From NCBI GenBank assembly GCA_017303905.1, contig JAFLBH010000002.1, positions 310,001-374,000 of the forward strand: 64,000 nt of DNA. The letters run 5' to 3'. The first letter of the stretch is position 1; each line of letters opens with the position of its first letter. The notes beneath the pieces were generated by a model, which saw only the letters and a list, made by a program, of their open reading frames with translations, was not told where the DNA came from and made no database searches. This document shows, piece after piece, positions 37,875-46,096 of this stretch. The position numbers and the translations under genes were made by a program. The DNA comes from Bacteroidota bacterium. GTDB lineage: Bacteria; Bacteroidota; Bacteroidia; B-17B0; Aurantibacillaceae.

Positions 37875-38759
37875 ATGGAAAACATGACCGGAAAATATAA
37901 CATTAAGGACCTTGAAGTGCTATCCGGCATTAAGGCACACACACTGCGCATTTGGGAGCAGCGCTACGGTATTTTACATCCACAAAGAACCGATACAAAC
38001 ATTCGTTTATACAGTAACGAAGATTTAAAACGCATCTTAAACGTAAGTACCCTAAATAAAAGCGGTATTAAAATATCCAAAATCGCACAATTACAGGAAG
38101 CGGAAATAAATGAGGCGGTAAAAAAACTGATTGTAACGGCCGATGATAAAGATGGATTAATTGATGGGCTCATAGTAGCGATGGTGGATTTAAATGAAGA
38201 AATGTTCAATCGGATTTTTTCAATTAACACAGTAAAAGAAGGCTTTGAGAAGACTGTTATAGAAGTGATATTTCCGTTTCTAAAAAAAACGGGCGTGATG
38301 TGGCAAACCGATTCGATTAATCCGGCCCAAGAACATTTTGTTACAAATTTAATCCGCCAAAAATTAATCGCTGCCATCGACAATGTTAATGGTTATCATA
38401 GCGAAACCTCAAAAAAAATCACCTTCTTTTTACCGGAAGGCGAATTACATGAAATTTCTCTTTTGTTGTATAATTACATGGCCAAAACCCGTGGCTACAA
38501 TACCGTGTATTTAGGGCAATCAGTACCGTTTAATGATTTAATTAAAGTCAATAGTATTAGTGCCAGTGATTATTTTGTTTGCGTAATTACTCAAGCATTA
38601 AAAGAAATTGAAATATCTGACTATTTACAGCGACTATCAGAAGCTCTACCTACCCAAAAAATATTCGTTTCGGGCTATCAAGCCGTTCAAAATCCAATAA
38701 AGTCACCAAAAAACGTAACAGTTTTCAAAACACCGGGCGACTTTATCCAATTACTTTAA
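37875..38759 (+). CDS. CarH/LitR-like MerR regulator with B12-binding domain
   Basis: 294 residues. MerR-type HTH at about 8-75 (YNIKDLEVLSGIKAHTLRIWEQRYGI), a four-helix linker and a C-terminal cobalamin-binding Rossmann domain. The W-x9-EH motif that cups adenosyl-B12 in CarH is present (W143, E153, H154). The lower-ligand motif DxHxxG reads E190-x-H192-x-x-S195, so the ligand His remains while Asp and Gly are altered. CarH-type proteins are light-sensitive repressors of carotenoid genes, and the downstream neighbours are a sigma factor, crtB and crtZ. It lies 134 bp ahead of the sigma gene. Light/B12 response is inference. Confidence 0.82.
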   Translation: MENMTGKYNIKDLEVLSGIKAHTLRIWEQRYGILHPQRTDTNIRLYSNEDLKRILNVSTLNKSGIKISKIAQLQEAEINEAVKKLIVTADDKDGLIDGLIVAMVDLNEEMFNRIFSINTVKEGFEKTVIEVIFPFLKKTGVMWQTDSINPAQEHFVTNLIRQKLIAAIDNVNGYHSETSKKITFFLPEGELHEISLLLYNYMAKTRGYNTVYLGQSVPFNDLIKVNSISASDYFVCVITQALKEIEISDYLQRLSEALPTQKIFVSGYQAVQNPIKSPKNVTVFKTPGDFIQLL

Positions 38760-38819: not shown

Positions 38820-38893
38820 TTGTTTAATATTTTATTGTTATTATTAAACAATATATTACATTTGTTTAATAATATTATTAAATCATTAAACAA
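38820..38893 (+). promoter_or_regulatory. Sigma-factor promoter embedded in two identical palindromes
   Basis: Two copies of TTGTTTAAT-N14-ATTAAACAA lie at 38820-38851 and 38862-38893, starts exactly 42 bp apart, four perfect half-sites. The promoter ATTG (38834-38837), 19 bp, then TACATTTG (38857-38864) sits between them, and the -7 box overlaps the third half-site. The last half-site ends on the A of the start codon. Probable operator for the CarH-like regulator. Confidence 0.75.
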
Positions 38894-39375
38894 TGACAAC
38901 GATAGAATTCAATACCTTATTAGTTGAGCAATCCAAATCCTTAAAGGGGTTTGCGCTTAATCTAACCCGTGATTCGGAAGCTGCCGCCGATTTATTGCAA
39001 GATACTATTGTTAAAGCCATCCAGTATCGTGATAAATTTGTGCGATCCACGAATTTCAAAGCCTGGATGCTAACCATCATGAAAAACACATTTATTAATA
39101 ATTATAGAAGAAATAAACTTCGTGAAAATTCATTTAAAGAAATAATTTATACCAGCGATACGAAGTACAACTCTACCGAAAATATAATTAACACTAAGGA
39201 ATTACAAAAGAGAATCAACGAATTAAGTGATGAATATAAATATCCGCTTGAACAATTTATTAACGGTTATAAATATCAAGAAATAGCAGAACAAATGAAT
39301 TTGCCAATTGGTACGGTAAAAAGTCGTATCTTTTTTGCTCGAAATAAAGTTATTAAATCATACCAAAACAATTAA
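38893..39375 (+). CDS. ECF sigma factor of the carotenoid cluster
   Basis: 160 residues. Region 2 (about 10-80: LVEQSKSLKGFALNLTRDSEAAADLLQDT, then FKAWMLTIMKNTFINNYRR) and region 4 (about 110-155: KYQEIAEQMNLPIGTVKSRIFFARN) of an extracytoplasmic-function sigma factor; region 3 is absent as expected. The start ATG at 38893 overlaps the last operator half-site. It directly precedes crtB by 7 bp. By position it should direct pigment genes, here or elsewhere. Confidence 0.9.
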   Translation: MTTIEFNTLLVEQSKSLKGFALNLTRDSEAAADLLQDTIVKAIQYRDKFVRSTNFKAWMLTIMKNTFINNYRRNKLRENSFKEIIYTSDTKYNSTENIINTKELQKRINELSDEYKYPLEQFINGYKYQEIAEQMNLPIGTVKSRIFFARNKVIKSYQNN

Positions 39376-39382
39376 TCTTTAG

Positions 39383-40219
39383 ATGAAAGAGCTATTCGAT
39401 ACAGTAAGCGTAAAATGCAGTAAGCTAACAACCACAAGCTACAGTACTTCATTTTCACTTGGTATTAAACTATTAGATAAACAATTCAGAGAGCCTATAT
39501 ATTCCATTTATGGCTTTGTTCGCTTTGCCGATGAAATCGTTGACACATTTCACGATTACGATAAGCAATATTTACTCGATAAATTCAGAAAAGATACGAT
39601 GGAGGCCATCGAACAAAAAATAAGCCTAAATCCCATTCTTAACAGCTTTCAAAAAGTGGTACATCAATTTGATATTGATATGCAACTTATCACTACTTTT
39701 TTGGATAGCATGGAAATGGACTTAAATAAAAAGGAATACGACAAAGCCCTTTACGATAAATATATTTTAGGTTCGGCTGAAGTGGTTGGTTTAATGTGTC
39801 TGAAAATTTTCACAAACGGTAACCGCGATTTATATAATCAGCTTGAATACTACGCCATGAAGTTGGGTGCAGCCTTTCAAAAAATCAATTTCCTTCGTGA
39901 TTTACAGGCCGATTACCACGTCATGGGGCGCACTTATTTCCCGGGCATCAATTTCGAAACGTTTAACGAAACTGAAAAAGTAAAAATAGAACGTGATATA
40001 GAAGCAGATTTCTCAATGGGATATGAAGGCATTAAGCAATTACCTAAAAATTCTCGTTTTGGTGTATATATCGCTTACGTTTATTATTACGCGCTTTTCA
40101 AAAAAATAAAAAACACACCGGCTCATCGTATCATGAATGAACGTATACGTGTGCCGGATAATGAAAAATACTCTCTGCTTTTACGCTCCTACGTGAAGCA
40201 TAGTTTAAATATGATATAA
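39383..40219 (+). CDS. crtB: Phytoene/squalene synthase family protein (CrtB)
   Basis: 278 residues. It joins two geranylgeranyl diphosphates to phytoene. Both Asp-rich magnesium sites are present: FVRFADEIVDTF (DEIVD, about residue 51) and the second INFLRDLQADY (about residue 173), with YSTSFSLGIKLL at the N-terminus. It sits 7 bp after the sigma factor and shares 1 base with crtZ. In relatives crtI is usually between the sigma factor and crtB; here it is not. Confidence 0.9.
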   Translation: MKELFDTVSVKCSKLTTTSYSTSFSLGIKLLDKQFREPIYSIYGFVRFADEIVDTFHDYDKQYLLDKFRKDTMEAIEQKISLNPILNSFQKVVHQFDIDMQLITTFLDSMEMDLNKKEYDKALYDKYILGSAEVVGLMCLKIFTNGNRDLYNQLEYYAMKLGAAFQKINFLRDLQADYHVMGRTYFPGINFETFNETEKVKIERDIEADFSMGYEGIKQLPKNSRFGVYIAYVYYYALFKKIKNTPAHRIMNERIRVPDNEKYSLLLRSYVKHSLNMI

Positions 40220-40689
40220 TGATTGCAGCTTATGTTATAATAACCATCGTTTCTTTTTGTGCCATGGAATTCGTTGCATGGTTTACACACAAATACATTA
40301 TGCATGGTTTATTATGGGTATTACATAAGGATCATCACACCGGACATAAGCACGCATTTGAACGTAATGACGCTTTTTTTGTCATCTTTGCCCTACCCGG
40401 TGCTTCTTTAATCATTGCCGGTACTATGAACGGATTTAATGAGTTGTTTTTTGCCGGACTTGGAATTACACTTTATGGCGCTGCTTATTTTTTAGTGCAC
40501 GATGTGTTTATTCATCAACGTTTCAAGCTATTCAGAAACTCCACAAACCCATATTTACTTGCCATACGCCGCGCACATAAAGTGCATCATAAGAAAACTG
40601 AAAAAAATGGCGGCGAATGTTTCGGTATGCTTATTGTTCCGATGAAATACTTTCGCAATGAAATTGGAACTCTCGCTAAACAAAGCTGA
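40219..40689 (+). CDS. crtZ: Carotenoid hydroxylase (CrtZ-type, fatty-acid hydroxylase superfamily)
   Basis: 156 residues, four membrane helices. Four His boxes bind the di-iron site: HKYIMH, HKDHH, HDVFIHQR and HKVHHKK. That is the beta-carotene 3-hydroxylase pattern, making zeaxanthin from beta-carotene. It overlaps the crtB stop by 1 base (TAATG) and ends 2 bp from the convergent SpoIIE gene, so it closes the cluster. Confidence 0.9.
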   Translation: MIAAYVIITIVSFCAMEFVAWFTHKYIMHGLLWVLHKDHHTGHKHAFERNDAFFVIFALPGASLIIAGTMNGFNELFFAGLGITLYGAAYFLVHDVFIHQRFKLFRNSTNPYLLAIRRAHKVHHKKTEKNGGECFGMLIVPMKYFRNEIGTLAKQS

Positions 40690-42715: not shown

Positions 42716-45700
42716 TTACATATTTCTTCTATACTGTCCGCCTACTTCAAATAATGAATTGGTGATTTGTCCGAGTGAACAATATTTCACCACTTCCATT
42801 AATTCCGCAAAAATATTTTGGTTTTGAATGGCGGTGTGTTGCAACTTAGATAAAACCTCAGCCGATTTCTCTTTATGAGATTTATGTAATTCCTGCAACA
42901 TGGCAATTTGATATTCTTTTTCTTCCTTGGTTGAGCGAATTACTTCCTGTGGTATAATGGTTGGAGAACCTTTAGAACTTAAGAAGGTATTTACACCTAC
43001 AATCGGATATTCTCCTGTATGTTTCAACATTTCATAATACAAGCTTTCTTCCTGTATTTTTCCGCGTTGATACATGGTTTCCATAGCACCTAACACGCCA
43101 CCACGCTCTGTTATCTTATCAAACTCACTTAATACAGCTTCTTCTACTAAGTCGGTTAATTCTTCAATGATAAATGAACCTTGTAAAGGATTTTCATTCT
43201 TCGCTAAGCCTAATTCGCGATTAATGATTAACTGAATGGCCATAGCTCTACGCACCGATTCTTCGGTTGGAGTTGTGATGGCTTCATCATACGCGTTTGT
43301 ATGTAATGAGTTACAGTTATCATAGATTGCATACAAGGCTTGTAAGGTGGTGCGAATATCATTGAAATCAATTTCCTGTGCATGTAACGAACGTCCTGAT
43401 GTTTGAATATGATACTTCAACATTTGACTTCTTTCATTACCACCGTATTTTAATTTCATGGCTTTGGCCCAAATTCTTCTGGCAACGCGACCAATTACGC
43501 TATACTCAGGATCAATACCATTACTGAAGAAGAAAGATAAGTTAGGTGCGAAATCATCAATGTGCATTCCGCGACTTAAATAATATTCCACAAATGTAAA
43601 TCCGTTTGCAATGGTAAATGCCAATTGAGAAATTGGATTCGCGCCTGCTTCCGCAATGTGATAACCCGAAATAGAAACAGAGTAAAAGTTTCTTACTTTG
43701 TTATCGATGAAATACTGCTGTACATCTCCCATCACACGTAAGCTAAACTCCGTACTGAATATACACGTATTTTGCGCCTGATCTTCTTTCAAAATATCCG
43801 CCTGTACAGTACCTCGTACTTGCGATAACGTACTGGCTTTGATTTTTTCATAAACATCTTTTGGTAAAACCTGATCACCGGTTACACCTAATAACATTAA
43901 GCCCAATCCGTCGTTTCCATCAGGTAATGCTCCCTGGTATTGCGGACGCTTGGTTCCTTTGGTTTTATAGATGGCTTCGATTTTCTTATTAACCTCTGCC
44001 TCCAGACCGTTAGCCTTAATGTACAATTCGCACTGTTGATCGATGGCTGCATTCATGAAAAATGCGGCCATGGTTGGAGCCGGACCGTTAATAGTCATGG
44101 ATACTGAAGTTTTAGGATCCGCCAAATTAAATCCACTGTAAAGCTTCTTGGCATCATCCAAACAACAAATACTTACACCGCTGTTTCCGATTTTCCCGTA
44201 AATATCCGGACGGTAATCAGGGTCGTTACCATAAAGTGTTACACTGTCAAAAGCTGTACTTAAACGTGCAGCAGGTAAACCTTTACTTACATAATGGAAA
44301 CGTTTGTTGGTACGTTCCGGTCCGCCCTCTCCGGCAAACATACGTGTTGGATCTTCACCTTCACGTTTAAACGGATAAATTCCCGAGGTATATGGAAATT
44401 CTCCCGGAAAATTTTCCTGGAGATTCCATTGCAGAATATCGCCCCAAGCCGTGTATTTCGGTGAAGCAATTTTCGGAACCTGTGTATGAGATAGAGACTC
44501 GTAATGTGTTTTAATCTTTAATTCTTTGTCGCGCACTTTGAAAACATAAAACTCATCGCTATATAATTTCTTCTTCGCTTCCCAGCCTTCAATTAATTTT
44601 AAGTTATGCGGATCTAAATCCAGTTTTATTTTCTCGAATGCTTCTTGCAATCCTTTAATCAATCTGTCTTTATCGTCAACTGATGACGCTTTCAAAGTTT
44701 CGATGGATTTTTGTAAGCTGTAAAGTCGCTGAGCAATTTCAGATTGTTGTTTTGCTCTTTTATCGTAATTGCGATTATTCTCGCTGATTTCACTTAAGTA
44801 ACGTGTTTTTGATGGTGGAATGATGTAAATCTTCTCACTCATTTCGTTCGTAATAACGAAATTGGATTTTAACTTTTGGTTACCTGTTTTCTCTACCATT
44901 TTATCCATCACGGCACGATACAAACGATTCATGCCGGGATCATTAAATTGAGAGGCAATAGTACCGTGTACAGGTAATGTTTCATCATCCGCTTCAAACA
45001 AATTATGATTGCGCTTGTATTGTTTCTTTACATCACGTAAAGCATCAAGTGCGCCGCGCTTATCAAATTTATTCACCGCAATAATATCCGCGAAATCCAG
45101 CATATCAATTTTTTCTAATTGTGATGCTGCTCCGTACTCCGGTGTCATCACATATAAACTCATATTGCTATGCTCGATGATTTCTGTATCGCTTTGTCCG
45201 ATTCCACTGGTTTCGAGAATCACTAAATCAAATCCGGCAGCTTTACAAATATCAACTGAATCCTGAACGTGTTTGCTTAATGCCAAATTACTCTGACGCG
45301 TAGCTAAGGAACGCATGTAAACTCTGTCGTTCTTGATAGCGTTCATTCGAATACGGTCGCCTAACAATGCACCGCCTGTTTTGCGTTTACTAGGATCAAC
45401 TGAAATAATCGCTACCTGTTTATCTTTAAAATCAATTAAGAAACGACGAACCAATTCATCCACCAAACTCGATTTACCCGAACCACCGGTACCGGTAATA
45501 CCAAGCACAGGAGTGGTAGAAACTTTTGCTTTCTCACGAACTTTATTCAGCATAGCGGTACTTTCTTCATTAAAGTTTTCAGCTGCTGAAATTAGTTTTG
45601 CGATTGATTTATGATCGCGCTCGATTAAATGAGCGACCTCACCATTTAAATTTTTTCCTGTTGGGAAATCACACTTCTGTAATAAGTCATTAATCATTCC

Positions 45701-46096
45701 CTGCAATCCCATCGCACGTCCGTCATCGGGAGAATAGATACGAGTGATGCCATAATTATGTAATTCTTCAATTTCTGTAGGAAGAATAACACCGCCACCG
45801 CCGCCAAATAATTTAATATGACTGCATCCCTTCTCTTTTAATAAGTCGTACATGTATTTGAAATATTCCACGTGACCTCCTTGGTAGGAAGTTACTGCAA
45901 TCGCGTTTGCATCTTCTTGAATCGCACAGTTTACAACTTCTTGCGCGCTTCTGTCGTGACCAAGATGTATGACCTCAGCTCCGCTTGATTGAATAATACG
46001 ACGCATGATATTGATAGCGGCATCATGTCCATCGAACAAAGCAGCGGCTGTTACAATGCGAATTTTATTTTTTGATTGGTAAGGGGTTGTTTCCAT
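42716..46096 (-). CDS. icmF: Fused acyl-CoA mutase IcmF (B12 domain, G-protein chaperone, mutase)
   Basis: 1126 residues, the usual length of IcmF. Residues about 10-140 bind cobalamin ([12 protein letters not shown], base-off His at about 24, then VIHLGHDRS and [10 protein letters not shown]). Residues about 195-420 are the MeaB-like GTPase chaperone with Walker [13 protein letters not shown] (about 199-210) and [12 protein letters not shown]. Residues about 560-1110 are the (beta/alpha)8 mutase, with [22 protein letters not shown] and [19 protein letters not shown]. IcmF interconverts isobutyryl-CoA and n-butyryl-CoA, some members pivalyl-CoA. The G-protein domain loads and repairs the B12. 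Exact substrate cannot be set by eye. It precedes the TPR phosphatase on the same strand. Confidence 0.92.

Follow-up and report, generated by a model that had tools for sequence, protein, structure and literature searches.

In Streptomyces, the LitR-LitS system places the gene of a CarH/LitR-type regulator beside that of an ECF sigma factor which drives carotenoid genes. The locus described here has the same adjacency of regulator and ECF sigma genes, but in a different phylum. The CarH proteins of Thermus thermophilus (CarHTt) and Bacillus megaterium (CarHBm) resemble the regulator encoded at this locus in architecture, fold, the Wx9EH motif and the lower-axial His (PMC8156234, PMC9304148). 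They also resemble it in the TnnACA half-site, which is the published half-site of CarH (PMC8156234, PMC9304148), and in an operator that overlaps the promoter for a set of carotenoid genes. The known CarH tetramers bind direct repeats of 11 bp, of the form nnnnTnnACAn, arranged in tandem (PMC8156234, PMC9304148), with three or four repeats in the CarHTt and CarHBm operators, whereas the half-sites found here are inverted, face each other 23 bp apart and form paired palindromes. The regulator also differs from the two CarH proteins in having kept neither His132 nor the R176-D201 pair.

The nearest precedent for two dimers on two inverted repeats is the paralogue CarA of Myxococcus xanthus, two dimers of which bind cooperatively to the two inverted repeats of its ~55-bp operator (PMC9304148, PMC8156234). 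CarA also has a MerR-type DNA-binding domain, and one of its repeats overlaps the promoter, as here. The likeness of the two operators is in layout only. CarA is B12-independent, lacks the Trp of Wx9EH that is kept in the present regulator, and requires the antirepressor CarS. Its repeats are well kept only in Myxococcus and Corallococcus coralloides, whereas the pair described here is conserved across a class. Literature searches confined to open-licence papers turned up no account of a CarH operator from Bacteroidetes.

The locus and its doubled palindrome

The window is the whole stretch of DNA that was analysed (64,000 nucleotides). The features that concern us are as follows.

37875..38759, + strand: CarH-like MerR-family regulator, 294 aa (Pfam MerR_1 and B12-binding_2; PDB match; AlphaFold2 model).
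38820..38851, no strand: predicted upstream operator palindrome, TTGTTTAAT-N14-ATTAAACAA (sequence and class-wide conservation).
38834..38837, + strand: probable -33 element ATTG, weak, within the upstream palindrome's spacer; the close relative G006 has it too.
38857..38864, + strand: -7 element TACATTTG, of the form TAnnTTTG (promoter reading and relatives).
38862..38893, no strand: predicted proximal (downstream) operator palindrome, TTGTTTAAT-N14-ATTAAACAA (sequence and class-wide conservation).
38893..39375, + strand: gene of a 160-aa ECF-type sigma factor, presumed to be the gene under control (Sigma70_r2, r4_2).
39383..40219, + strand: squalene/phytoene synthase family gene, crtB-like (PF00494, E 8e-41).
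40219..40689, + strand: crtZ-like (beta-carotene hydroxylase-like) gene (sequence as read and operon position).
42716-46096, - strand: IcmF, a fused isobutyryl-CoA mutase and adenosylcobalamin (AdoCbl) enzyme, about 2 kb beyond the carotenoid operon.

The MerR gene, the operator and the sigma, phytoene synthase and crtZ-like genes are tightly packed on one strand; the crtB-like gene starts 7 bp after the sigma gene, and the crtZ-like gene overlaps the crtB stop. The crtZ-like gene gave no match in Pfam or NCBIfam, and its tblastn homologues (39-49%) lie near CarH or sigma loci. Two divergent crtI-family genes are found elsewhere on the same contig (194-197 kb). The genome also carries a cobalamin adenosyltransferase gene (PF01923), and the presence of this gene together with that of IcmF indicates that the genome uses AdoCbl.

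The interval between the MerR and sigma genes measures 134 bp and is 84% A+T. An earlier note had described two identical palindromes in it, and that description proved exact: the four half-sites stand in the order forward, reverse, forward, reverse with zero mismatches in both palindromes, the gaps are equal at 14 bp, and the palindromes start 42 bp apart. The second palindrome ends with A38893, which is also the first base of the sigma-gene ATG. The half-site, first claimed as 9 bp, is really about 10 bp long (TTTGTTTAAY / RTTAAACAAA, from the logo of the relatives). Across 20,000 dinucleotide-preserving shuffles of the intergenic region, identical 9-mers never came to stand in forward-reverse-forward-reverse order with equal inner gaps.

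A genome-wide search (3.95 Mb) for the palindrome found nothing beyond the two copies at up to one mismatch. At up to three mismatches the same genome gave 26 matches against 30 for the reversed-pattern control, which is background. The 2-mismatch matches (L003, L004) were considered as further operators and rejected as being at control level, and the photolyase and adenosyltransferase genes of this genome had nothing above 3-mismatch chance matches. The full operator is found in the window's own genome at the sigma promoter only.

Two single half-sites were also seen at 195.62-195.70 kb of contig C2 (about 5,600-5,700 of L228), between the two divergent crtI-family genes. They are everted, AATAAACAA then TTGTTTAAC, and are identical in the sister species. 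They are spaced as the two inner half-sites of a 44-bp double operator would be and possibly represent a reduced operator.

The two palindromes are almost certainly sites for the neighbouring CarH-like regulator, and we consider it quite likely that they form its bipartite operator, through which the sigma promoter would be repressed in the dark in an AdoCbl-dependent manner and released by light. We infer the direction of control, the ligand and the light signal from the family of the regulator, its conserved contacts to AdoCbl, the overlap with the promoter and the make-up of the regulon.

The regulator: CarH features kept and lost

The regulator consists of a winged-helix DNA-binding domain, a four-helix bundle with Wx9EH, and a B12-binding Rossmann domain. 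Thermus CarH/LitR (3whp, 5c8d) ranked first in a PDB sequence search. An AlphaFold2 model built from 52 sequences had a pLDDT of 92.8 and matched the TtCarH B12-binding domain with a VIA Z of 22 and an rmsd of about 2.4 over 195 residues (2.3-2.5 to individual TtCarH chains). The W-x9-EH motif reported for the adjacent MerR protein is indeed there (W143, E153 and H154 of 294 aa). The dark-state contacts to AdoCbl are almost always kept among 157 relatives from the class (Thermus numbering: W131 in 156/157, E141 in 157/157, H142 in 156/157), and the lower-axial position H177 is His in 153/157. Wx9EH contacts the adenosyl group and separates CarH from CarA; an intact motif marks a B12-dependent CarH, while the Trp is lost in CarA (PMC9304148). 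Since the motif is intact, the regulator is a CarH by this published criterion. Sequence, fold and signature residues agree on a CarH homologue, and the fold and the AdoCbl-contact residues are shown by computation; the comparisons strongly support a CarH-type protein as the predicted reader of the palindromes. The NCBIfam model for CarH, NF052513, gave 100.8 bits, far under its 400-bit equivalog cut-off, so the protein is to be called a CarH homologue and not the modelled equivalog.

Several features of known CarH proteins are weakened or missing. PF02310 was not detected in this regulator, though it was detected in 32/52 relatives. The B12 motif was sought in the form D/ExHx2G/P-x41-SxT/V-x22-27-GG. 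E190 and H192 are present, the first part reads ExHxxS with S at the x2G position, SG replaces GG, and the middle part is loosely kept; as read from these residues, the motif in this regulator is partly degenerate. The x2G position is G in 103/157 relatives. At the position of the upper-axial His132 of Thermus CarH the regulator has Q144; only 1/157 relatives has His there, and Q is commonest. His132 is the upper ligand of the light state of Thermus CarH, and the TtCarH H132A variant stays largely tetrameric in light, although the same paper notes an earlier report of dissociation (PMC10442372). The residue has been found in 'many CarH homologues' and hence is not strictly required (PMC9304148). 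Because His132 is absent, any light release in this protein cannot follow the Thermus route exactly. The R176-D201 dimer pair of Thermus CarH is replaced by L191 and S216.

These losses bear on an alternative in which the regulator binds the palindromes but is CarA-like, either working independently of AdoCbl or sensing a signal other than light, such as redox state or B12 status alone. Bipartite inverted repeats occupied by two dimers are the CarA mode of binding (PMC9304148), His132 is missing across the clade, and this member in addition lacks the R176-D201 pair and has the partly degenerate B12 motif. However, the Trp that CarA has lost is present in all but one of the 157 relatives and the whole Wx9EH motif is near-invariant, and the operators that relatives carry on photolyase/cryptochrome, folE and crtI genes point to light. 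We therefore regard a CarA-like regulator as unlikely, and an AdoCbl-dependent, light-responsive CarH homologue as the better reading.

Promoter overlap, operator grammar and conservation

Directly 5' of the ECF sigma gene the promoter reads ATTG, a 19-bp gap and TACATTTG. The ATTG at 38834-38837, probably the -33 element, falls within the first palindrome's spacer, and the -7 box overlaps the third half-site (38862-38870) by 3 bp at its TTTG; the earlier note had already placed the one element inside the first palindrome and the other on the third half-site. TAnnTTTG is the sigma-A -7 box of Flavobacterium (PMC9723704), and the sigma-gene promoter is accordingly of the housekeeping type. Measured from a palindrome's start, in most cases that of the proximal copy, the -7 box of the sigma promoter is found across the loci at -5 (20 cases) or +16 (21 cases). 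These two main registers differ by 21 bp, and a few boxes fall at +5 to +15. Either main register places the palindrome over the -7 box or directly beside it, a layout compatible with a block to RNA polymerase.

The regulator might instead be an activator of the classical MerR type, acting by remodelling of a promoter whose elements stand 19 bp apart; the spacer measures 19 bp here, and many MerR proteins activate such promoters (PMC9478572). The proximal site, however, is on or downstream of the -7 box, a blocking position, whereas MerR geometry centres between the promoter elements. A 19-bp spacing is also usual between the -33 and -7 elements of Bacteroidetes promoters. Activation of this kind is very unlikely, and the positions favour repression by the CarH-like protein. 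MliR, a MerR-like regulator of Bacteroidetes, was also considered and set aside as unrelated and without an effector domain (PMC9478572).

The T, A, C and A of TnnACA are found in 98, 100, 100 and 98% of right half-sites, respectively (84 sites). Over 73 intergenic regions, 11-bp direct repeats were not enriched: offset 11 gave 7 counts, which is background, versus 105 for inverted half-sites at the palindrome offset. An apparent 21-bp direct-repeat signal probably arises because the half-sites are themselves near-palindromic (TGTTwAACA). The earlier note had matched the two sites to CarH tetramers binding as pairs of dimers; this is not an established CarH geometry, the known tetramers using tandem 11-bp direct repeats. 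At a looser cut-off of 3 mismatches at least two palindromes were present in 56/73 intervals. Some MerR-sigma intervals have three or four palindromes in a row (L022, L096, L148, L167, L171). Neighbouring palindromes are separated by distances that group near 33-36, 41-46, 53-57 and 62-65 bp. These classes are discrete, a 10-11 bp period describing them better than a uniform distribution (p 2e-4). The best single period was about 9.7, better than 10.5; strict 10.5-bp helical phasing was therefore dropped in favour of discrete classes roughly one turn apart.

For the comparison across the class, MerR loci were gathered without regard to the palindrome. This yielded 157 CarH-like proteins (L005-L207) and 73 loci with the MerR gene followed by a sigma gene on the same strand (72 of them distinct, since L037 and L110 are one contig; at 60% MerR identity they form 38 clusters). 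The earlier note had staked its reading on the palindrome also standing upstream of the orthologous sigma gene in relatives, and it was present in 73/73 MerR-sigma loci at up to two mismatches (shuffled mean 3.2 loci) and in 68/73 at up to one (shuffled mean 0.2 loci). Among the 157 MerR loci, exact 7-bp cores occurred at offset 23 in 68 cases and at offset 24 in 15, with 0-4 at other non-trivial offsets and no peak in the reversed control. The 73 loci gave 113 occurrences of half-sites at offset 23 and 22 at offset 24, whereas the neighbouring offsets 22 and 25 gave 2-3 and any other scanned offset at most 26. The sister species, whose MerR protein is 85% identical, keeps all four half-sites and the two promoter elements, while the spacers have diverged.

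Occurrence of the palindrome was then compared with that of the regulator. It was found in 29/33 genomes with the regulator versus 3/27 without (Fisher p 1.5e-9), and the ratio of sites to reversed-pattern control was 66:9 in the former and 3:7 in the latter. Related sigma genes with no MerR gene adjacent had a site at up to one mismatch in 0/32 cases, and these MerR-less relatives are interspersed among the others in the sigma tree. The sigma factor itself was ruled out as the cause of the motif, since sigma relatives without MerR lack it. Where the sigma and MerR genes of a genome are unlinked (L238, L247, L235), the sigma operator is still present; at L252 even the 42-bp doubled arrangement recurs exactly. 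Co-occurrence by genome, absence at MerR-less sigma genes and persistence when the genes are unlinked thus indicate that the palindrome follows the regulator. The operator, its conservation across the class, its tie to the regulator and its overlap with the promoter were all computed directly.

The tie between half-site and regulator is purely correlational, and the palindromes could in principle be the target of another regulator, with the CarH gene beside them by coincidence. This is highly improbable, as site and regulator occur together across genomes even when unlinked, the regulator's own gene is preceded by a palindrome at 19/157 loci (up to one mismatch), and the conserved bases equal the CarH consensus. 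Chance repeats, for which the A+T-rich composition of the intergenic region might speak, have a negligible probability and are already refuted by the conservation in all 73 loci, the shuffles giving no such set and a close relative keeping the half-sites while the spacers diverge.

Thirty-five CarH-like loci without an adjacent sigma gene had no palindrome at up to two mismatches within the fetched stretch (they include L017, L018, L024, L029, L105, L119, L152 and L172). The operator of these loci may be different or located elsewhere.

Proposed light control and a predicted regulon in Bacteroidia

Beyond the sigma promoter and the regulator's own gene, palindromes in relatives stand before crtI, folE (GTP cyclohydrolase I), a photolyase/cryptochrome-type gene and additional sigma genes, and also before SRPBCC-like and DUF4397-like genes (names read from the sequences). 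Palindromes before photolyase/cryptochrome, folE, SRPBCC-like and DUF4397-like genes were seen at L083, L084, L085, L089, L144 and L164, and more such loci are L230, L234, L237, L245, L248 and L257. Palindromes on carotenoid and photolyase/cryptochrome genes are the content expected of a light regulon, and we predict from the sites a wider class light regulon in the relatives.

For bipartite control by the CarH-like regulator we propose the following course. In the dark, the AdoCbl-loaded protein would fill both inverted repeats cooperatively, as two dimers or as one bridging tetramer. The bound regulator would mask both promoter elements, at -33 and -7, as well as the start region, where transcription of the sigma gene is predicted to begin at about 38870, so that RNA polymerase could not load. 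Light would break the Co-C bond and the regulator would release the DNA, after which the sigma-crtB-crtZ-like operon would be transcribed. The sigma factor may then switch on light-protection genes that have no palindromes of their own in this genome.

The doubled palindrome, conserved across class Bacteroidia, takes the place of the tandem direct repeats of other CarH operators. A broader reading, to which we give about even chances, is that Bacteroidia hold a distinct CarH branch. Such a branch would use paired, spacing-restricted inverted repeats; its light sensing would do without the bis-His switch of His132 and the R176-D201 dimer contact of Thermus CarH, and so with a different dimer geometry and photolysed state; and it would govern a class-wide regulon of sigma, crtI, folE and photolyase/cryptochrome genes.

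The photoreceptor family is already known, and what is new is the arrangement of the known CarH half-site. This arrangement bears on the question of how a single DNA-binding domain can serve direct as well as inverted repeats, and the near-absence of His132 bears on whether the light response needs bis-His ligation. The operator would offer a compact new element for green/blue-light gene control, and its distribution predicts light-controlled genes in many environmental Bacteroidia.
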